64,000 nucleotides of DNA from Mumia quercus (GTDB taxonomy: Bacteria > Actinomycetota > Actinomycetes > Propionibacteriales > Nocardioidaceae), in NCBI RefSeq assembly GCF_025506335.1, contig NZ_JANZYO010000005.1, forward strand, positions 1 through 64,000, written 5' to 3'. The notes under the pieces are model-generated. The model made no database searches and was not told the origin of the DNA. It saw nothing but the letters and a program-made list of their open reading frames with translations. The position numbers were made by a program, and so were the translations under genes. Below, piece after piece: positions 2,989 through 10,052 of the stretch (position 1 is its first letter; each line of letters begins with the position of its first letter).

Positions 2989-3085
2989 CGGTGTCAATCC
3001 GGACATCGCGGGCCAACGGTTTCACGCGGCGTGAACGGCAATATTCGGTCGCAGCCACCCCGCCGTCGGCCGTAGCGTCGACTCC

Positions 3086-3871
3086 GTGAGCGACAGCGAC
3101 GGATACTTCGGTGCCGAGGTGGCGGCCCGCTACGACGACGTCCACTCACCGATGTTCGAGCTCACGACCGTGACCGCGACCGTCGACGTCCTCGCGCGGC
3201 TGGCGGGGGACTCCGCCGTGCTGGAGCTCGGGATCGGGACCGGCCGCATCGCCCTCCCGCTCGCGGAGCGAGGAGTGAGCGTCCACGGGATCGAGCTCTC
3301 GCAGGCGATGGTCGACCAGCTGCGTGCGAAGCCGGGTGGCGAGGCGATCCCCGTCACCGTCGGCGACTTCGCCACGACCCGCGTCGACGCACCCCCGGGC
3401 GGGTTCGGGCTGGCGTACCTGGTGTTCAACACGATCAACAACCTGACCTCGCAGGACGACCAGGTCGCGTGCTTCCGTACGACGGCGGAGCACCTCGCGC
3501 CCGGTGGCCGCTTCGTCGTCGAGGTCGGCGTGCCCGAGCTCCGGAGGCTGCCGTACGGGGAGACCACCGTGATGTGGGGCGAGGGGCCGCCGGTGTGGTC
3601 GTACGACGTGTACGACACGGCGACGCAGGCGCTGTCGTCGAACTACGTCAGGATCGACGACGGACACGCGACGTTCCGCTCGATCCCGTTCCGGTACGTG
3701 TGGCCGGCGGAGCTGGACTTGATGGCGCGGCTGGCGGGTCTTCGGCTGCGCAGCCGCTGGGAGGACTGGGACGAGAGGCCGTTCACCCACGAGAGCAGAC
3801 GGCACGTGTCGGTCTGGGAGAAGCCCACCGAGGGGCACGTGGAGCGGACGACGGGAATCGAACCCGCGTAA
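3086..3871 (+). CDS. Class I SAM-dependent methyltransferase
   Basis: A 261-residue protein with a Rossmann-type methyltransferase core: motif I is VLELGIGTGRIALPLAERG at about 45-63, followed by an acidic residue after strand 2 (GIELS) and the GDF motif at about 94. It should transfer a methyl group from SAM to an unidentified small molecule. The GTG at 3086 begins MSDSDGYFG. The last eleven codons run into sequence antisense to the tRNA-Gly 3' end (the left attachment repeat), giving the odd terminus VERTTGIEPA. Because the repeat is the chromosomal copy, the gene end should be the same in an uninterrupted chromosome. Confidence 0.85.
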   Translation: MSDSDGYFGAEVAARYDDVHSPMFELTTVTATVDVLARLAGDSAVLELGIGTGRIALPLAERGVSVHGIELSQAMVDQLRAKPGGEAIPVTVGDFATTRVDAPPGGFGLAYLVFNTINNLTSQDDQVACFRTTAEHLAPGGRFVVEVGVPELRRLPYGETTVMWGEGPPVWSYDVYDTATQALSSNYVRIDDGHATFRSIPFRYVWPAELDLMARLAGLRLRSRWEDWDERPFTHESRRHVSVWEKPTEGHVERTTGIEPA

Positions 3872-3886
3872 TCAGTTTGGAAGACT
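3838..3886. repeat. Left attachment site (attL) of the tRNA-Gly island
   Basis: These 49 bases are identical to 9977-10025. They match the 3' half of the minus-strand tRNA-Gly, from the anticodon loop to the encoded CCA end. The tRNA 5' half is absent here, so this is the displaced 3' end left by site-specific integration. It overlaps the methyltransferase 3' end. Confidence 0.92.
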
Positions 3887-4010
3887 CCGTGCCCGCGTTT
3901 GCAGTTCATGCAGGTCAGGTGCCAGGTTCTGGGCTCTGACCTGCGACGATGCTAGCAGGGTGAGGAGGCTACCCGGCGTTGCTGACTGTCGCTGGGGACT
4001 GCTCGTGCCC

Positions 4011-4036
4011 GACGATTGGGCACGATTGGGCACGGC
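4011..4036. repeat. Left-end tandem GATTGGGCACG repeat (possible integrase arm site)
   Basis: Two abutting copies of GATTGGGCACG lie about 125 bp inside the left repeat. A near-identical double copy is found at 9881-9905, about 72 bp inside the right repeat and in the same orientation. Paired short direct repeats near both attachment sites fit arm-type binding sites of tyrosine integrases. This role is inferred from position only. Confidence 0.5.
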
Positions 4037-4151
4037 CCGCCCCGTCACCACCTGCACAATCACCGACGGTCCGTGCGGTGCGGCGAACTCGGCAGCGAGG
4101 CTATCCCCGCCCGTGAATCCGCTCCCGTCGCGACGCTCGTACGCTGACCCC

Positions 4152-4463
4152 GTGACGACGCGTGCACCTGCCCCTTACCACTCGGCGCCGGACCCCCCGC
4201 CCGACCGATCGCATTGGCAGCAAGTGCGAAACGTGTCATGGCCGTTCGAGGATCGGGACGGCAACGGGCACGCCCGGGGCATCCCGTCCGAGTCTGAGCC
4301 TGTGCGTGTCATGGTGTGGCTCGACTTCGAGCGCGACGGGGTGTGTTGGCTCCCGGCGCGGGCGGTGCGGTGGCACGGGCGGCATGTGTGCGTGGCAGTC
4401 GCCGACGCGCGGTTGCAGGTGTCGTACGTGTGGGTCGACGCGACGGACGTGCAGAGGTTCTAG
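4152..4463 (+). CDS. Hypothetical island protein (103 aa)
   Basis: The open frame extends to 3960, but the likely start is the GTG at 4152, directly downstream of a TACGCT hexamer resembling a -10 box, as in leaderless actinobacterial genes. The product has a proline-rich N-terminus and then a compact segment of alternating valines and tryptophans (RVMVWLDFERDGVCWLPARA, then VCVAVADARLQVSYVWVDA), suggesting a small beta-rich domain. There is no signal peptide or membrane helix. It resembles short unnamed proteins carried by actinobacterial integrated elements, but no function can be given. It converges with the next gene, the stop codons overlapping by 4 bp. Confidence 0.6.
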   Translation: MTTRAPAPYHSAPDPPPDRSHWQQVRNVSWPFEDRDGNGHARGIPSESEPVRVMVWLDFERDGVCWLPARAVRWHGRHVCVAVADARLQVSYVWVDATDVQRF

Positions 4464-5230
4464 ATCGAACTCGGATCGACGTCGGCGGCGATATCACGTG
4501 TGATGTCGCGGACTGCCTCACGCGTCTCGTTCAGCAGGAGGCCCATGAAGCCACCGATGCTCACATGTCTCAGCGCAGGTATGTCGAGCCTGCACGCGAA
4601 GGAGAGAGACACGCGCTCGGGGGCGCAGGCGTCGGAGACGCTAGCTACGTACTCCTCATGGTCAAACTCGAAGTTTAGGTCGGCCTCTGGGCCGTTCCAG
4701 ATCGCTACGGTCGGAGACTTGTCCGTGACGATTATGACGTTCAGGCGGCGGTGCTTGTCACGGTTCGAGAGGTCGCGCAGATTCGGGAGCCATTGGGAGG
4801 TTGCTTGCACGTTCCAGATTCGTTCAATGAGCGCGGGGCCGACACTGCTGAGCGCTTCGCCCGGTTTCGCCAACCTGCCGAGGAAGGTTTCGAGCGATGT
4901 CGGCTTCTTGGGAATGGGAAAACCGAGGCGCTCTGTCTCCTCGTCGCTGAGGCGCCTTCCCTGCGAATAGTCTGCGAGCGCGACGACCAACAGGTCGAGC
5001 GCGGACCGGGTGTTGTGCAACGCGTCGCCAAGAACAAGCGCGGCATCCTGCGGTGGCTCTTCGAGAACGTGACGGCTGAACCAATAGCGGCCGTCGTGGT
5101 GGTCGTAGTTGACCTCCCACGGTGCACGTTCCTCGTAATCGTCGAGCATCTCCTGCAACGTCATCAGATGAGTTCGCGCCCACCGCAAGCGGCGCGCCAC
5201 CGGATCAAGTTCGAGCACTCGACCTGACAT
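4460..5230 (-). CDS. Hypothetical protein with HN-RSALD and NRDKHR motifs
   Basis: A 256-residue soluble protein. The start is the ATG at 5230, whose A is also the last base of the upstream gene's stop (TGATG), so translation is coupled. Visible landmarks are DALHNTRSALDLLVVALADY at about 78-97 and LRDLSNRDKHRRLNV at about 152-166. The pair 'LHN-RSALD ... DKHR' recurs in a group of uncharacterised actinobacterial proteins. The all-helical look of the first part and conserved polar residues are reminiscent of HEPN-like proteins, but the canonical R-x4-6-H motif is not evident. Its membrane-anchored partner (5230-5736) and island location make a defence or stress role conceivable but unproven. 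Confidence 0.7.
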   Translation of the reverse strand: MSGRVLELDPVARRLRWARTHLMTLQEMLDDYEERAPWEVNYDHHDGRYWFSRHVLEEPPQDAALVLGDALHNTRSALDLLVVALADYSQGRRLSDEETERLGFPIPKKPTSLETFLGRLAKPGEALSSVGPALIERIWNVQATSQWLPNLRDLSNRDKHRRLNVIIVTDKSPTVAIWNGPEADLNFEFDHEEYVASVSDACAPERVSLSFACRLDIPALRHVSIGGFMGLLLNETREAVRDITRDIAADVDPSSI

Positions 5231-5736
5231 CAAGTGCCGGTCTCGTACATCGCGCGGACCTCAACACCGAGAAGCTCTCGCGCGTCGATCATTGGTTGCT
5301 TGACCCGTTTCCACGTCGCGAGCACCTCCCGTTCGGTGTTGTCGCCGTTCATCTCAGCGCCAAGGTCCGCAACCCGTTGTAGAGCGTCCTTGACCGGCGA
5401 ACCGGGCGCTTCGAGCACCGCGAGTCGGCGCACTCGAAACGTGGCCGCACCGAGGGTTCGCACGTAAGGCTCCCGCTGGGACCACCGATTCTCTTCGCTC
5501 TCGTGCGTGCCGTCTGTGGCGAGCGCGTCGGTGTTGAGGGAAATATCGGCGGCAGCGTTGTAGACCTCGTCGAGGGCGGTCAGGGCGTCCGTCAGATACG
5601 CACGGCGCCATGCGCGCCACTCCGCGCGAGTCGCTTTCCGGTCGGTGCGGCGCTCGCGGAGGTACGCGGCGCCCTCGCCGAGTCCGAGTCCGAGTATCAG
5701 GGTCACGACGGGTAGCCACACATCCATGCTCCGCAT
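5230..5736 (-). CDS. Hypothetical membrane-anchored protein (168 aa)
   Basis: The product has one N-terminal membrane helix (VWLPVVTLILGLGLGEGAAYL), then a long, strongly basic helix (RERRTDRKATRAEWRAWRRAYL) and a mostly helical cytoplasmic part. The anchor is followed by arginine-rich sequence, so the bulk should be inside the cell. An ATG at 5727 (MDVWLP) is an alternative start three codons in. It is translationally coupled through TGATG to the 256-aa protein downstream, so the two probably work as a membrane-tethered pair. No family is recognised. Confidence 0.65.
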   Translation of the reverse strand: MRSMDVWLPVVTLILGLGLGEGAAYLRERRTDRKATRAEWRAWRRAYLTDALTALDEVYNAAADISLNTDALATDGTHESEENRWSQREPYVRTLGAATFRVRRLAVLEAPGSPVKDALQRVADLGAEMNGDNTEREVLATWKRVKQPMIDARELLGVEVRAMYETGT

Positions 5737-5987
5737 TCAACCCGAGGTCAGGGTCGGTCAGAGTGAGTCGTCGGTCAACACGCCGGTTGGTGCCGTCACG
5801 ACGCGCGCGGAGCGCAGCGGGTTGCCGAACCAAGCCCGCACGTCGTGACAGCAGCCGGAATGCTCGGCGCGAGGTTGTCGAACTCGTTGAGCCACCCAAC
5901 GCATGGTCGACGATTGTGCCCGTCCACCACGGCTCGGCGCGCCATTGACTCGGCGCTGTCGACGCGGCTCCATGTTCGGCGGCGGGA

Positions 5988-6428
5988 TCAATACGCCGAC
6001 ACGTCGCACTCGGCCAGGAACGGGCCGCCCTCACCCGCTGTGACTACTGCACCGATCATGCGCGCGCTCACCGACGATGACACCGACACAACAGCGTTGC
6101 AATAGCCCTGCGCCTCAGCCTGATTCTCGGCCTTGTCGGCGAGGTCGGTCACTACTGTCACCCTTGACCCGTTGTCGTTGGTGAACTTTGTGATGTGTTC
6201 CCAGGTCGGGTCCTTCGGCCAGCCGTAACTGTCTGAGAATGCCTTCTGCACCTGCTGTGCCAGGTCGGGTTCTTCCGGCGTCGGTGGAGTCGTCGGCGTG
6301 GTCGCGGTGGTCCATTCGGTCGTCTCAGTTGCGGCCGGCGATTTGTCCCCGCCATCATCGTCATCGTCCCCGCAGCCCGACACGACGAAGAGCGCGGCCA
6401 CGGTCAGTGCTGTCAGTGTTCGGGTCAT
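5988..6428 (-). CDS. Putative lipoprotein (146 aa)
   Basis: The ATG at 6428 gives MTRTLTALTVAALFVVSGCGDDDDD: basic N-region, hydrophobic core and lipobox VSGC with Cys19, followed by an acidic linker and a Thr/Pro-rich spacer. That is a standard actinobacterial lipoprotein signal, so the mature protein should be anchored outside the membrane. The folded part (about 60-146) contains DPTWEHITKFTNDNGSRVTV and resembles small extracellular domains of unnamed lipoproteins. A longer frame reaches 6512 but lacks the signal-peptide logic. It faces the DUF2510 gene divergently, sharing the 107-bp region 6429-6535. Bases 5737-5987 downstream hold no supported gene. Confidence 0.7.
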   Translation of the reverse strand: MTRTLTALTVAALFVVSGCGDDDDDGGDKSPAATETTEWTTATTPTTPPTPEEPDLAQQVQKAFSDSYGWPKDPTWEHITKFTNDNGSRVTVVTDLADKAENQAEAQGYCNAVVSVSSSVSARMIGAVVTAGEGGPFLAECDVSAY

Positions 6429-6535
6429 ATGGTCCAGTGCAAGCGCCGGGCGGCGTGTTCGCCACCCAGGAAACCGCAACCACGACGCCGGACAAACCGC
6501 AGCATCCGGCACCTGACCCGATCTACGCTCCCGTC

Positions 6536-6964
6536 ATGGCGGACCAGGGTTGGTATCCAGACCCGCAGAACCCGACCGCGCAACGGTACTGGGACGGCGA
6601 CAGTTGGACGGAGTACACCCGCGCCCTGCCGCCACCGGAACCGCGGAAGCGCAAACCGAACATCTTCGCGCTCATCCTCGCGTCCGTGCTCGGCCTCGCC
6701 GCGCTCGCTGGCGTCGTCAACCAGCTGGTGGAATCCACACCCAGTTCCAGCACCGACGAGTGCGTCATGAATGATCAGCCGACCAGCGCAACGAGCAGCA
6801 TGACGACCGTGGAGTGCGAGGACCCCCGCGCAGACTTCAAGGTCGGCGACCAGGTCGACAGCTCAGACGAATGCAACTCTGTCGCTGGGGCGTCGTCCGA
6901 CTTCTACATGACCAAGAAGACCGAGCTCACCGATCAGACGTACTGTCTGATGCCGGTTGACTGA
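6536..6964 (+). CDS. DUF2510 domain membrane protein (142 aa)
   Basis: The N-terminal QGWYPDPQNPTAQRYWDGDSWTEYTR is a DUF2510 module, a short W-rich motif common at the cytoplasmic N-terminus of actinobacterial membrane proteins. A membrane helix follows (IFALILASVLGLAALAGVVNQLV, about 42-64). The C-terminal part is Ser/Thr/Asp-rich with four cysteines (CVMN, VECED, DECNS, TYCLM), as expected for a disulfide-stabilised exported domain. The ATG at 6536 lies just after a TACGCT hexamer, suggesting a near-leaderless transcript. It is followed 3 bp later by the next gene, probably an operon. Confidence 0.75.
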   Translation: MADQGWYPDPQNPTAQRYWDGDSWTEYTRALPPPEPRKRKPNIFALILASVLGLAALAGVVNQLVESTPSSSTDECVMNDQPTSATSSMTTVECEDPRADFKVGDQVDSSDECNSVAGASSDFYMTKKTELTDQTYCLMPVD

Positions 6965-6967
6965 ACC

Positions 6968-7570
6968 ATGGCCGCCATCGTCATCGCCATCGCCGCCCTG
7001 ACCTTCACAATCGCGTCGTTCTGGTGGCTACATGCCCGCCGTGGGCGACTCATCTGTACCGAGCCGCACAGGTTCACCGCGATGGTCAACGAAGCGGTTG
7101 CCAGACTCCGCTTTCCGTTGGTGCTGGAGAACACTGGTCCACGTCCCGTCGTGATCCAGGACCTGCAACTCTCGTTCCCCAGTGACGAACAGACCGTTCT
7201 TCCTCTCCCATGGATGAGCGTCCACTCGACACTTTCCGCAGACCAAGCCGACGTCGTGGACCACCCGGTGCCCATCGTCGTGGACGGGTTCTCGGCGCAG
7301 CGCATCATCGTTCAGTTCGGTGCGCCCTTGCCAGGCGTAGTCCTGGTGGGGCGAAAGGTTGCCGTCCGCATTGACGCGCAGATGTCACTCAGCGACAAGT
7401 GGAAGGAGTTGGTCTCGTTCCCGCTACTTGCCCAGGGCATCGCCTACCCCGAGCGATACACGACCTACGCCAATCGAATCAACGACATCCCGCCCGACGC
7501 GTACAAGAAGGCATCAAAGGCGGCGAAGCGCCTTCTGGAAACAGTTCGCGACGAGTCGAATGGGGACTAG
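6968..7570 (+). CDS. Hypothetical membrane protein (200 aa)
   Basis: Begins MAAIVIAIAALTFTIASFWWLHARRGRL, one membrane helix with a positive stop-transfer end. The rest looks like a beta-sandwich of moderate length (for example FPLVLENTGPRPVVIQDLQL), ending in a Lys/Ala-rich helix (AYKKASKAAKRLL). The phrase 'ENTGPRPVVI' is common in unnamed proteins with an immunoglobulin-like domain behind a membrane anchor. It starts 3 bp after the DUF2510 gene stop, so the two are likely cotranscribed. Its function is not recognised. Confidence 0.65.
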   Translation: MAAIVIAIAALTFTIASFWWLHARRGRLICTEPHRFTAMVNEAVARLRFPLVLENTGPRPVVIQDLQLSFPSDEQTVLPLPWMSVHSTLSADQADVVDHPVPIVVDGFSAQRIIVQFGAPLPGVVLVGRKVAVRIDAQMSLSDKWKELVSFPLLAQGIAYPERYTTYANRINDIPPDAYKKASKAAKRLLETVRDESNGD

Positions 7571-8200
7571 TTGATTATTCGGATGTGGCATCTGAGAGTG
7601 CGCGTTTTGGCTCGGATGACGGATTCGGCGGGCGTGTTCGCGCAAGTCAAGCCAGCGCCGAAGCTCGACCGAATGTCCTGTGCGCCCCGACATGTACGGA
7701 CTCCGTGCTGTCGGGCCGTCGCGGTTTCACCTTCTCGCCACCGAATTCGCGCGGCGCCCGGAATATCTGCCTTCACCCCATGACCGCCGTAGGTCAAATG
7801 CCCAGTGCATCGACGGGGTGTACATTCACCGTCCGCGAAACTGTACCGGCCAGACGGTCCGGAACTTGTGGTCTTGCCCGGGGAGAAAACGGGGAGGTGC
7901 AGGGCTGCCCCACCAGGCATTTGTCAAAAAAAGACCTCAACCACACGCTGGGCTTCGGCGTCGTCAGGCTCCTTGAGCCGTTGCGGTCCACCGTCGCGGC
8001 CTCGCGCGCGCGGGTCCCCAGCCGGGGGCGCCAACGTCAAGCAGATGTGTCATCAATTTGTCCTCAATTGACTCCTTACTCCCTCCTCTTCTATAGGGAC
8101 GACGGTTACCGCCGGGCCAACCCGACGCCAAGCGTCCGGTCATGGGCGACGCTTACCGGCCGATGACCCCGACCGATACCGTCGGAATCACGCCGGACGA
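7571..8200. other. Gene-poor stretch of the island with degenerate repeats
   Basis: About 630 bases without a convincing gene. Open frames exist on both strands but show no coherent codon bias, signal or domain. There is a run of seven A at about 7927-7933, rare in this DNA. The right end (8101-8211) carries four degenerate repeats described separately. The stretch may be decayed coding sequence, or the replication or recombination control region of the element. Confidence 0.5.
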
Positions 8201-8211
8201 TTACCGTCGGG
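8101..8211. repeat. Four degenerate TTACCG repeats
   Basis: Copies of GACG-N-TTACCG-N-CGG are visible at 8101-8115, 8148-8160, 8171-8185 and 8197-8211, all in the same orientation, at intervals of 47, 23 and 26 bases. The last overlaps the 3' end of the winged-helix-like gene. Regular direct repeats of this size next to a DNA-binding protein gene fit iterons or accessory recombination sites. This is inference. Confidence 0.45.
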
Positions 8212-8638
8212 TCACCAGCTCGGCGCGACGCACCAGAGCCTCCTCGAACGCGATGTACCCGGCGGAGTCGCCGACCGATCGCAAGTGCTTGCGTACATGC
8301 TCCTCGTCGGACTCGCGAAGGACCACCATGTACGTAGCGCCCCTGCCCCGACCTCGGCCGGGGGGCGGTTCCGGATCCCGCACGATAAATGCCAGCTCGT
8401 GCAGCAGTCGCAGCGCGCGGTCGACGCTGCGGTGATCGTCGCGCCGTTCCCCAGTGGCGGTTGTCAGCTCATGGCCCAGTGCGGTGGCCAAGGCGGCATG
8501 TCCCCCAAACCACCGGGGCGGCGTGTCCTTATCGAGCGCGGTCAGACACATGACGGTTAACGCGGCGCGAGACGCATGGTGACGCCCAAGGTAGGGAAAG
8601 GCATGGGCGACCGCAGCGGACACCAACTCAGCGCCCAT
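8201..8638 (-). CDS. Putative winged-helix DNA-binding protein of the island
   Basis: A 145-residue protein from the ATG at 8638 (MGAELVSAAVAHAFPYLGR). It contains ALTVMCLTALDKDTPPRWFGGHAALATALGHEL, then SVDRALRLLHELAFIVRD and RGRGATYMVVL: helix, turn and wing arrangement as in small winged-helix regulators or initiators of actinobacterial integrative elements. No catalytic motif is present. The start lies inside the 3' end of the integrase frame (82-bp overlap), and the inferred integrase breakpoint is only a few bases upstream of this ATG, so this gene may also have lost some N-terminal codons. A role in replication or excision control is a guess. Confidence 0.6.
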   Translation of the reverse strand: MGAELVSAAVAHAFPYLGRHHASRAALTVMCLTALDKDTPPRWFGGHAALATALGHELTTATGERRDDHRSVDRALRLLHELAFIVRDPEPPPGRGRGRGATYMVVLRESDEEHVRKHLRSVGDSAGYIAFEEALVRRAELVTRR

Positions 8639-9837
8639 CGGTGGTCTGGGCCGGCGTAGGTGTCGGCGTGGGCTCGCATGATCGCGGTCACGTGCGGCGG
8701 CAGCGTCACCGTGCGCAGCGATGCCTGAGTCTTGGGCGGCCCGAAACCTGCCGGGCGACCCCGGCGCTCCAGCACCGCCCGCTCGACTCTCACCCGGCCG
8801 GTGTCCAGGTCGACGTGACGACGTGCGAGCGCGAACAGCTCTCCCGCGCGTAGCCCCGACCACGCGGCCACGTGCACGGCAGCGGCGTAGCGGGCGGGCA
8901 TCGCGTCAGCGATTTGTGCCACCTGCTCGGCCGTGGCGGGGATTCGCTCAGGGGCGCGGTGCACGCCTGCGCGCGGGATCTGGCACGGGTTGGCCGCCAC
9001 CTGGCCCTCGCGCACGGCTGCCTGCATGACTGTGCGCAGCAGCCGGTACGCCTGCGTCACCGGGGTCGGCACGCCGGGCGCGTGGTGGGGGGCCTCTGGG
9101 CCCGGCTCGGGCGCCGGGGGCACCGGGCTGCCGTGGGCCTGCCACGCGGCCAGCACGGCGGGGCTGAGACGGCCGGTGGGGGCGACGTGCAGCCCGTTCT
9201 CCCGCGCCCACGTGCGGGCTGCGTGCACGGCTCGGCGGCGGCGTCGCTCGTTGCCGCGCTCGGCGCGCTCAGCGGCTTCGGTTCGCCCGGTGTGGACGGC
9301 CGCGCTGTACCAGTCGCGCACCAGCGTCGTCGTCAGGTGGCGCAGCTCGACCTGGGCGAGCGTGATCGTGGACCCTCCCCGCGTGCCGTCGCGTCGGGTC
9401 AGCGGTCGGCTCAGCCACCGCGCAGTCACCTGCCCGTACAGGTCGACCGTGCGCGGCGCCAGATCTACACGCGAGTCCAGCCACGCCGCGAGGTAGTCGC
9501 CCAGCGATTCGGCGCCTGCCTCGGGGCTGCGCCACGCGCCGCGCACGATGTCGGTGCGGTTGCCCGCCAGCCAGTCCTGAGCCTCGGCGCGGGTGTCGAA
9601 GGTCTGCGGTGCGGTCCGGCGCTGACCGGTCGTGGGGTCGGTGTAGCGGACCTGGAACCGTCCGGACCCTGTGCGCCGAATCGAACCGTGGGCGCGCTTG
9701 CGAGCTCGGCGCGCTCGGGTAGCTGCTCGGGGAGGTTTCGTGGGCCGCGCTGCGGGGACCTCGGCGTCGGGCAACGTGCGTAGTTCGGCGTGCGTCGCGG
9801 CTCGGCCGGTGGTCGGCGTGGGGTGCTGGTCTGGCAT
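8557..9837 (-). pseudogene. int: Tyrosine integrase lacking its C-terminal catalytic residues, with Lsr2-like insert
   Basis: A 426-residue frame with an AP2-like N-terminal DNA-binding part (GSIRRTGSGRFQVRYTDPTTG), a SAM-like core-binding domain (about 110-290) and the start of the catalytic domain: Arg330 (WSGLRAGEL) and Lys369 (GPPKTQASLRTV). The normal HxLRH, H/W and nucleophilic Tyr that should follow over about 100 residues are missing; after GPD at about 398 the sequence turns into 28 unrelated codons and stops. No other frame nearby supplies them. Residues 203-236 (AVHAARTWARENGLHVAPTG and onward) resemble the Lsr2 C-terminal DNA-binding domain. The ATG at 9837 has AAGGA upstream. It cannot be catalytically competent by itself. 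Confidence 0.85.
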
Positions 9838-9880
9838 CGGGAGGTGTCCTTACGGATCCGTCGCAGCGGCCGGAGCCGAT

Positions 9881-9905
9881 GCGATTGGGCACGGTTGGGC
9901 ACGAA
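9881..9905. repeat. Right-end tandem GATTGGGCACG repeat (possible integrase arm site)
   Basis: GATTGGGCACG followed directly by GTTGGGCACG, the counterpart of 4011-4036 with one difference in the second copy. It lies between the integrase start (9837) and the right attachment repeat (9977), where arm-type sites are expected. Confidence 0.5.
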
Positions 9906-9976
9906 ACTGCCCAGGACCGCGCCGCTCTCCCAACGTCAGCAGGTGACGAAAACACTTGCTGACCGGCGGTGATGGT

Positions 9977-10025
9977 CGTGGAGCGGACGACGGGAATCGA
10001 ACCCGCGTAATCAGTTTGGAAGACT
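9977..10025. repeat. Right attachment site (attR) within tRNA-Gly
   Basis: Identical over 49 bases to 3838-3886. It covers the 3' half of the intact tRNA-Gly gene from the anticodon loop through the encoded CCA plus two downstream bases. The identity ends exactly in the anticodon stem-loop, a common crossover position for tyrosine integrases. Confidence 0.92.
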
Positions 10026-10052
10026 GAGGCTCTACCATTGAGCTACGTCCGC
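9979..10052 (-). tRNA. tRNA-Gly(TCC)
   Basis: A 74-base cloverleaf including an encoded CCA. The acceptor stem GCGGACG pairs with CGTCCGC and the discriminator base is T. The anticodon loop CTTCCAA reads TCC between CAGT/ACTG stem halves, and the T-arm has GGTTCGATTCC. Its 3' half is supplied by the integrated island yet its sequence is fully restored, so the tRNA should work. Confidence 0.95.

Follow-up and report, generated by a model that had tools for sequence, protein, structure and literature searches.

A decayed integrative island at tRNA-Gly(TCC) in Mumia quercus, most likely stranded with a truncated, Lsr2-domain integrase

In Mumia quercus, a 6.1-kb block of foreign DNA lies in the tRNA-Gly(TCC) gene, bounded by an exact 49-bp direct repeat. 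We read it, with considerable confidence, as a decayed integrative island, most likely a stranded remnant whose integrase was truncated by a deletion. The insertion itself is confirmed, and both the deletion and the loss of mobility are what we infer. Throughout, "the window" is the whole stretch of DNA that was analysed (64,000 nucleotides of contig NZ_JANZYO010000005.1).

Results

The direct repeat that the initial annotation had placed at the two ends of the island proved to be exact. The left-hand copy is the 3' part of tRNA-Gly(TCC) alone and ARAGORN finds the intact gene at the right-hand copy, which agrees with the earlier description of an intact tRNA on one side and a displaced 3' part on the other (Table 1). 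Between positions 3000 and 10400, the direct repeats next in rank are imperfect and no longer than 31 nt. Across the 4.1-Mb genome, the 49-bp sequence occurs in these two places, its other matches being two tRNA genes at 81-82% identity, and there is a single tRNA-Gly(TCC) gene in the whole genome. The lower GC content described for the island was also borne out (66.4% within it, 71.5% across the remaining window), and third-position GC is 75-83% in the cargo genes versus 92-96% in the neighbouring host genes. Furthermore, all five same-genus genomes carry the order nei, short ORF, single tRNA-Gly(TCC), tRNA-Pro and tig, with no island. Thus, the exact repeat, the intact tRNA, the GC contrast and the island-free site in the congeners establish that the segment is an insertion, and with an integrase gene adjoining attachment repeats at the 3' end of the tRNA, its classification as an integrative element stands.

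Table 1. Features of the island and its integration site (positions in the window)
Feature	Position	Strand	Basis or remark
Left-hand attachment repeat, displaced tRNA 3' part	3838..3886		exact 49-bp repeat
TTGGGCACGATTGGGCACG, putative paired integrase arm-type sites, left end	4016..4034	+	
Cargo, 255-aa, widely scattered uncharacterised family	4460..5227	-	homologues in other genomes
Cargo, 168-aa, single N-terminal membrane segment	5230..5736	-	ORF; third-position GC 76%
Cargo, lipoprotein-like secreted protein	5988..6437	-	weak similarity to actinobacterial lipoprotein models, far under cut-offs
Cargo, DUF2510, membrane segment and LppU/SCO3897-type domain	6536..6964	+	PF10708 1.6e-10, NF049863 2.9e-10
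Cargo, 200-aa, N-terminal membrane segment	6968..7570	+	rare homologues elsewhere in family
No convincing gene, 630 bp	7571..8200		ORF list
Small winged-helix-like gene of element family	8201..8638	-	start codon adjoins putative deletion joint
Tyrosine integrase, 3'-truncated	8557..9837	-	phrog_1 match 3.2e-36
Lsr2-type DNA-binding domain in integrase core-binding region, residues 201-234	9136..9237	-	PF23359 2.7e-07
TTGGGCACGGTTGGGCACG, putative paired integrase arm-type sites, right end	9885..9903	+	
Right-hand attachment repeat, anticodon loop to tRNA 3' end	9977..10025		exact 49-bp repeat
Intact tRNA-Gly(TCC), integration target	9979..10052	-	ARAGORN; 3' part regenerated by right-hand repeat

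An empty site had been predicted to have one tRNA copy joined directly to the methyltransferase gene that flanks the island on the left. The five congeners do have the single tRNA copy and no island, but this junction is not seen because the methyltransferase (3086-3871) is also missing from the locus in all five. Its position is taken by a secreted-protein gene in three of them and by other sequence in the rest, so the methyltransferase flank appears to be variable itself; we looked for the secreted-protein gene in the M. quercus genome and did not find it. The methyltransferase was considered as an island gene and rejected on its position outside the repeat. Its homologues end near residues 246-248, and here the ORF runs on into the attachment repeat and has its stop codon within it, which suggests that the left flank was rearranged too. 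Just within the left end, GGCTCTGACCTGCGACGATGC (3932-3952) resembles GCTCTGACCTGCGACCACGC, to the left of the empty tRNA site of one congener (L027), and also CTCTGACCTGC in island L062; these likenesses are possibly the trace of earlier elements at these sites.

There is indeed an integrase gene beside the tRNA, as the initial annotation had it, but the gene is not intact. Its match to the phrog_1 integrases spans residues 39-399, and in every comparison with full-length relatives the similarity breaks off at residues 397-399 of about 500; the alignment to 23 relatives ends at about residue 398. What the island encodes is thus a site-specific recombinase truncated at about residue 398, with the C-terminal ~100 residues missing, and without the HxxR, the second His and the nucleophilic Tyr. 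The relatives' WHDLRH, LGH/GHST and YQH motifs, which contain these three catalytic residues, have no counterpart in the alignment, and a remnant of the C-terminus was sought throughout the island and not found. The integrase part of the ORF comprises residues 1-398 (8644-9837); the remaining 29 codons (8557-8643) are out of frame and extend across the beginning of the next gene. In the AlphaFold model, confidence is high for most of residues 51-395, and the chain is unstructured, with pLDDT <50, beyond residue 399. The next gene encodes the small winged-helix-like protein, whose alignment begins at its homologues' Met-Gly; this would put the deletion joint at most a few bases from the start codon, to which we infer that the deletion extends. 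As no genome with an intact form of the same element was found, this deletion is deduced from relatives at about 50% identity.

The initial annotation implied a working integrase, which the absence of the catalytic C-terminus does not support; the island is best read as a stranded remnant and not as a carrier mobile by its own integrase. In the same clade, the integrase of Myceligenerans indicum (L087:9908-11349) has a frame that ends early, with its C-terminal half in another frame, and decay may therefore be recurrent among these integrases.

It might be argued that the integrase is in fact intact and appears truncated through a mistake in sequencing or assembly. GC-rich regions do collapse and there is a single assembly, yet such an error would have to remove some 100 codons together with the leader of the next gene, for which a short indel is insufficient. 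As the homologous gene continues uninterrupted after the joint, and the genome is 99.98% complete in 13 contigs, we regard this as the least probable of the explanations considered. An explanation with somewhat more in its favour, although still unlikely, is that the island remains mobile, with the truncated protein acting as a regulator or accessory arm-binding protein while the complete integrase of another element excises it in trans. Both attachment cores and both pairs of arm-type repeats (described below) are perfectly preserved, and helper-dependent elements are common (PMC11389934). Moreover, the actinobacterial AICE Faln1739 was still seen to excise despite a stop-truncated integrase (PMC3218068), so truncation is no proof of immobility. 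However, no other integrase of this clade is found in the M. quercus genome at E ≤ 1e-20, the left copy of the repeat spans 49 bp only, and the identity of the repeats may reflect a recent insertion or constraint on the tRNA copy. Loss of mobility thus seems most likely.

Although the gene had rightly been called an integrase, a domain inside it was overlooked, namely a DNA-binding domain of the type found in Lsr2, a protein that carries an R-G-R motif. The PF23359 match to this region exceeds the curated cut-off, and the domain is present in 23 of 24 aligned family members. The family profile finds the solved Lsr2 structures 2kng, 6qkp and 6qkq and also the Tn1549 and lambda integrases; both the alignment and the structure model place the insert between the two halves of the core-binding domain. 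Since a first tree that included the Lsr2 columns might have grouped the proteins by the insert alone, the analysis was repeated with those columns removed. The clade persisted, the 24 proteins that bear the insert lying together on one side of a branch supported at 100/99 (98/98 with the insert retained). The insert is missing in related integrases from viral contigs and from other actinomycetes, and we found no description of this architecture in the openly accessible literature.

The initial annotation had the boundaries of the island right and missed a set of paired repeats close to them. TTGGGCACGnTTGGGCACG lies just within both island ends and occurs nowhere else in the 4.1-Mb genome. 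At each end there are two copies of TTGGGCACG, 10 bp apart and in one orientation, the pairs lying 130 bp (left) and 73 bp (right) inward of the 49-bp repeats. With two mismatches permitted, a genome-wide search returned these two pairs only, and a control pattern returned none. We surveyed 14 delimited family elements for exact common pairs and found a common 7-mer with a 10-bp period at both ends in eight (this island and seven others) and none in the remaining six; as a control, 300 random internal pairs per element yielded no common 10-bp-period 7-mer. The repeated word varies by subgroup (CGTGCCC, CGTGCCA, CGTGACC or TGCACCC), as one would expect if such sites evolve together with the integrase's arm-binding domain. 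From their position and repetition, these pairs look like integrase arm sites.

Roughly five unexplained genes had been counted, and we list five cargo genes; the small winged-helix-like gene beside the integrase had been overlooked. Its product shares 41% identity, across 81 residues, with a protein encoded by island L064; the family profile of this gene has matches in L063/L067, L064 (two) and L065, and the homologues in L064 and L065 are situated ~1.5-2 kb past the integrase gene. The five cargo genes encode mostly membrane or secreted proteins, and their role may lie at the cell envelope. Homologues of the 255-aa protein occur in 11 of 295 other genomes sampled across the phylum, at about 29-42% identity. 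This protein has no family or PDB match, and its single-sequence structure model (mean pLDDT 40) is unusable. The 168-aa protein has no family match in profile searches; the 200-aa protein is 33% identical to a homologue in G107 and has no Pfam, NCBIfam or PADLOC match. Searches of the 255-aa and winged-helix-like proteins against plasmids, and of two cargo proteins against viral contigs, gave no match, and the 630-bp stretch without a convincing gene has no similarity to proteins of the relatives' islands. A defence role for this cargo was considered and is not claimed, since there is no PADLOC match even at E ≤ 1.

The view that the element is neither a phage nor a conjugative element holds, as genes of both kinds were not found. 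A degenerate prophage or phage satellite would be in keeping with the existence of Actinobacteria satellites of comparable size (PMC11389934), and integrases from viral contigs are among the more distant relatives of the protein. However, none of these viral-contig relatives carries the Lsr2 insert or belongs to the clade. A search of 50,697 phage records with the integrase gave no hit at 1e-10, and no structural, terminase or lysis family gave a convincing score (PHROGs). On these grounds, a phage origin is highly improbable. The host group, the tRNA site and the tyrosine integrase would all fit a former AICE from which the rep and tra genes have disappeared, the typical AICE order being att-tra-rep-int-att (PMC3218068). 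We nevertheless consider an AICE origin distinctly unlikely. Among the scanned island genes, FtsK/TraB, RepSA/RepAM/Prim-Pol and Xis were not found, and domain and family scans of the same genes found no relaxase. No such gene appears either among the best family matches for the larger cargo proteins of the relatives, where one TrwC relaxase is seen, and the clade is defined by an Lsr2-type domain that the AICE literature consulted does not mention. A decayed island of another family remains our preferred reading.

The relatives occur in Nocardioidaceae, Gordonia, Cellulomonas, Actinotalea, Georgenia, Isoptericola, Promicromonospora, Myceligenerans and others, and nearly all integrases of the clade are encoded immediately downstream of a tRNA gene, which is tRNA-Gly(TCC or CCC), tRNA-Ala or, once, tRNA-Thr. 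Their delimited elements measure 6.2-16.3 kb, with repeats of 26-47 bp, and the M. quercus island is the smallest and most decayed member of the family found. Pfam matches among 42 cargo proteins of the relatives include GmrSD restriction (three), MmeI-type restriction-modification (two) and one each of ISP-type restriction, a TIR effector (CAP12/Pycsar), AbiTii and a TrwC relaxase; PADLOC agrees with Pfam on the restriction-type genes. The cargo is not common to the M. quercus island and its relatives, with one weak match between them (E 0.003). Island L064 (7969-13566) carries metabolic rather than defence genes, encoding a permease, a metallo-beta-lactamase fold, an acyl-CoA-ligase-like protein and an amidohydrolase. 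The element of Actinotalea fermentans encodes a large protein (L075:6938-9934) that resembles the counted TrwC relaxase, and some family members may therefore be mobilizable.

Discussion

The history that we propose begins with a circular element, probably larger than the present island, which would have integrated at the 3' end of tRNA-Gly(TCC) when its integrase recombined the 49-bp core of its attachment site with the tRNA gene. The element would have brought a replacement 3' half, by which the only tRNA-Gly(TCC) of the cell stayed functional. In the intact integrase, the core was presumably held by the core-binding and catalytic domains, and the TTGGGCACG pairs near the two ends by the N-terminal arm-binding domain; the Lsr2-type domain, set within the core-binding region, probably provided an additional DNA contact. 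A later deletion appears to have taken the final ~100 codons of the integrase, with the catalytic His-x-x-Arg, second His and Tyr, and all of the DNA that followed as far as the start codon of the winged-helix-like gene. The island would now be fixed unless a related integrase acts in trans.

A small fossil in itself, the island is of value mainly because it leads to a family of tRNA islands found in several actinomycete families; many of these islands carry restriction or abortive-infection genes. The integrase clade is a clean marker for finding such islands, and it poses the question of why a recombinase needs an Lsr2-type domain. It is conceivable, although we think it doubtful, that the insert renders these integrases responsive to nucleoid or silencing proteins; by binding AT-rich or Lsr2-coated DNA, it would then link xenogeneic silencing to the integration or excision of islands with defence genes. 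If so, the clade would consist of recombinases that contain a silencer domain of their own, and its islands would form a separate class.

Several features of the island are those of known systems. Like other tRNA-targeted islands of tyrosine integrases (Williams-type tRNA sites), it is inserted in the 3' part of a tRNA gene, with variable cargo, a perfect attachment repeat that begins in the anticodon loop and reaches the tRNA 3' end, and an adjoining integrase that reads away from the tRNA; it differs from them in its unusually small size and in the truncation and Lsr2-type insert of its integrase. With the AICEs pSAM2, SLP1 and related elements (PMC3218068), it has in common an actinomycete host, a tyrosine integrase and a tRNA site, whereas the replication initiator, FtsK-type translocase and excisionase of those elements were not found here. 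The integrase has the order of arm-binding, core-binding and catalytic domains of lambda Int and Tn1549 Int (PDB 1z1b, 6emz), with Foldseek and profile matches to them, and putative arm-type direct repeats at both ends, but identity is low, an insert of ~70 residues contains the Lsr2-type domain, and the C-terminal catalytic half is missing. The insert belongs to the same sequence family (PF23359) as the C-terminal DNA-binding domain of Lsr2 (PDB 2kng, 6qkp) and retains an xGR motif; unlike in Lsr2, it lies inside a recombinase and has Thr or Ser at the first R-G-R position in the clade. The M. quercus island thus adds a decayed member to this island family, which is in turn one variant of the tRNA-targeted integrative islands.
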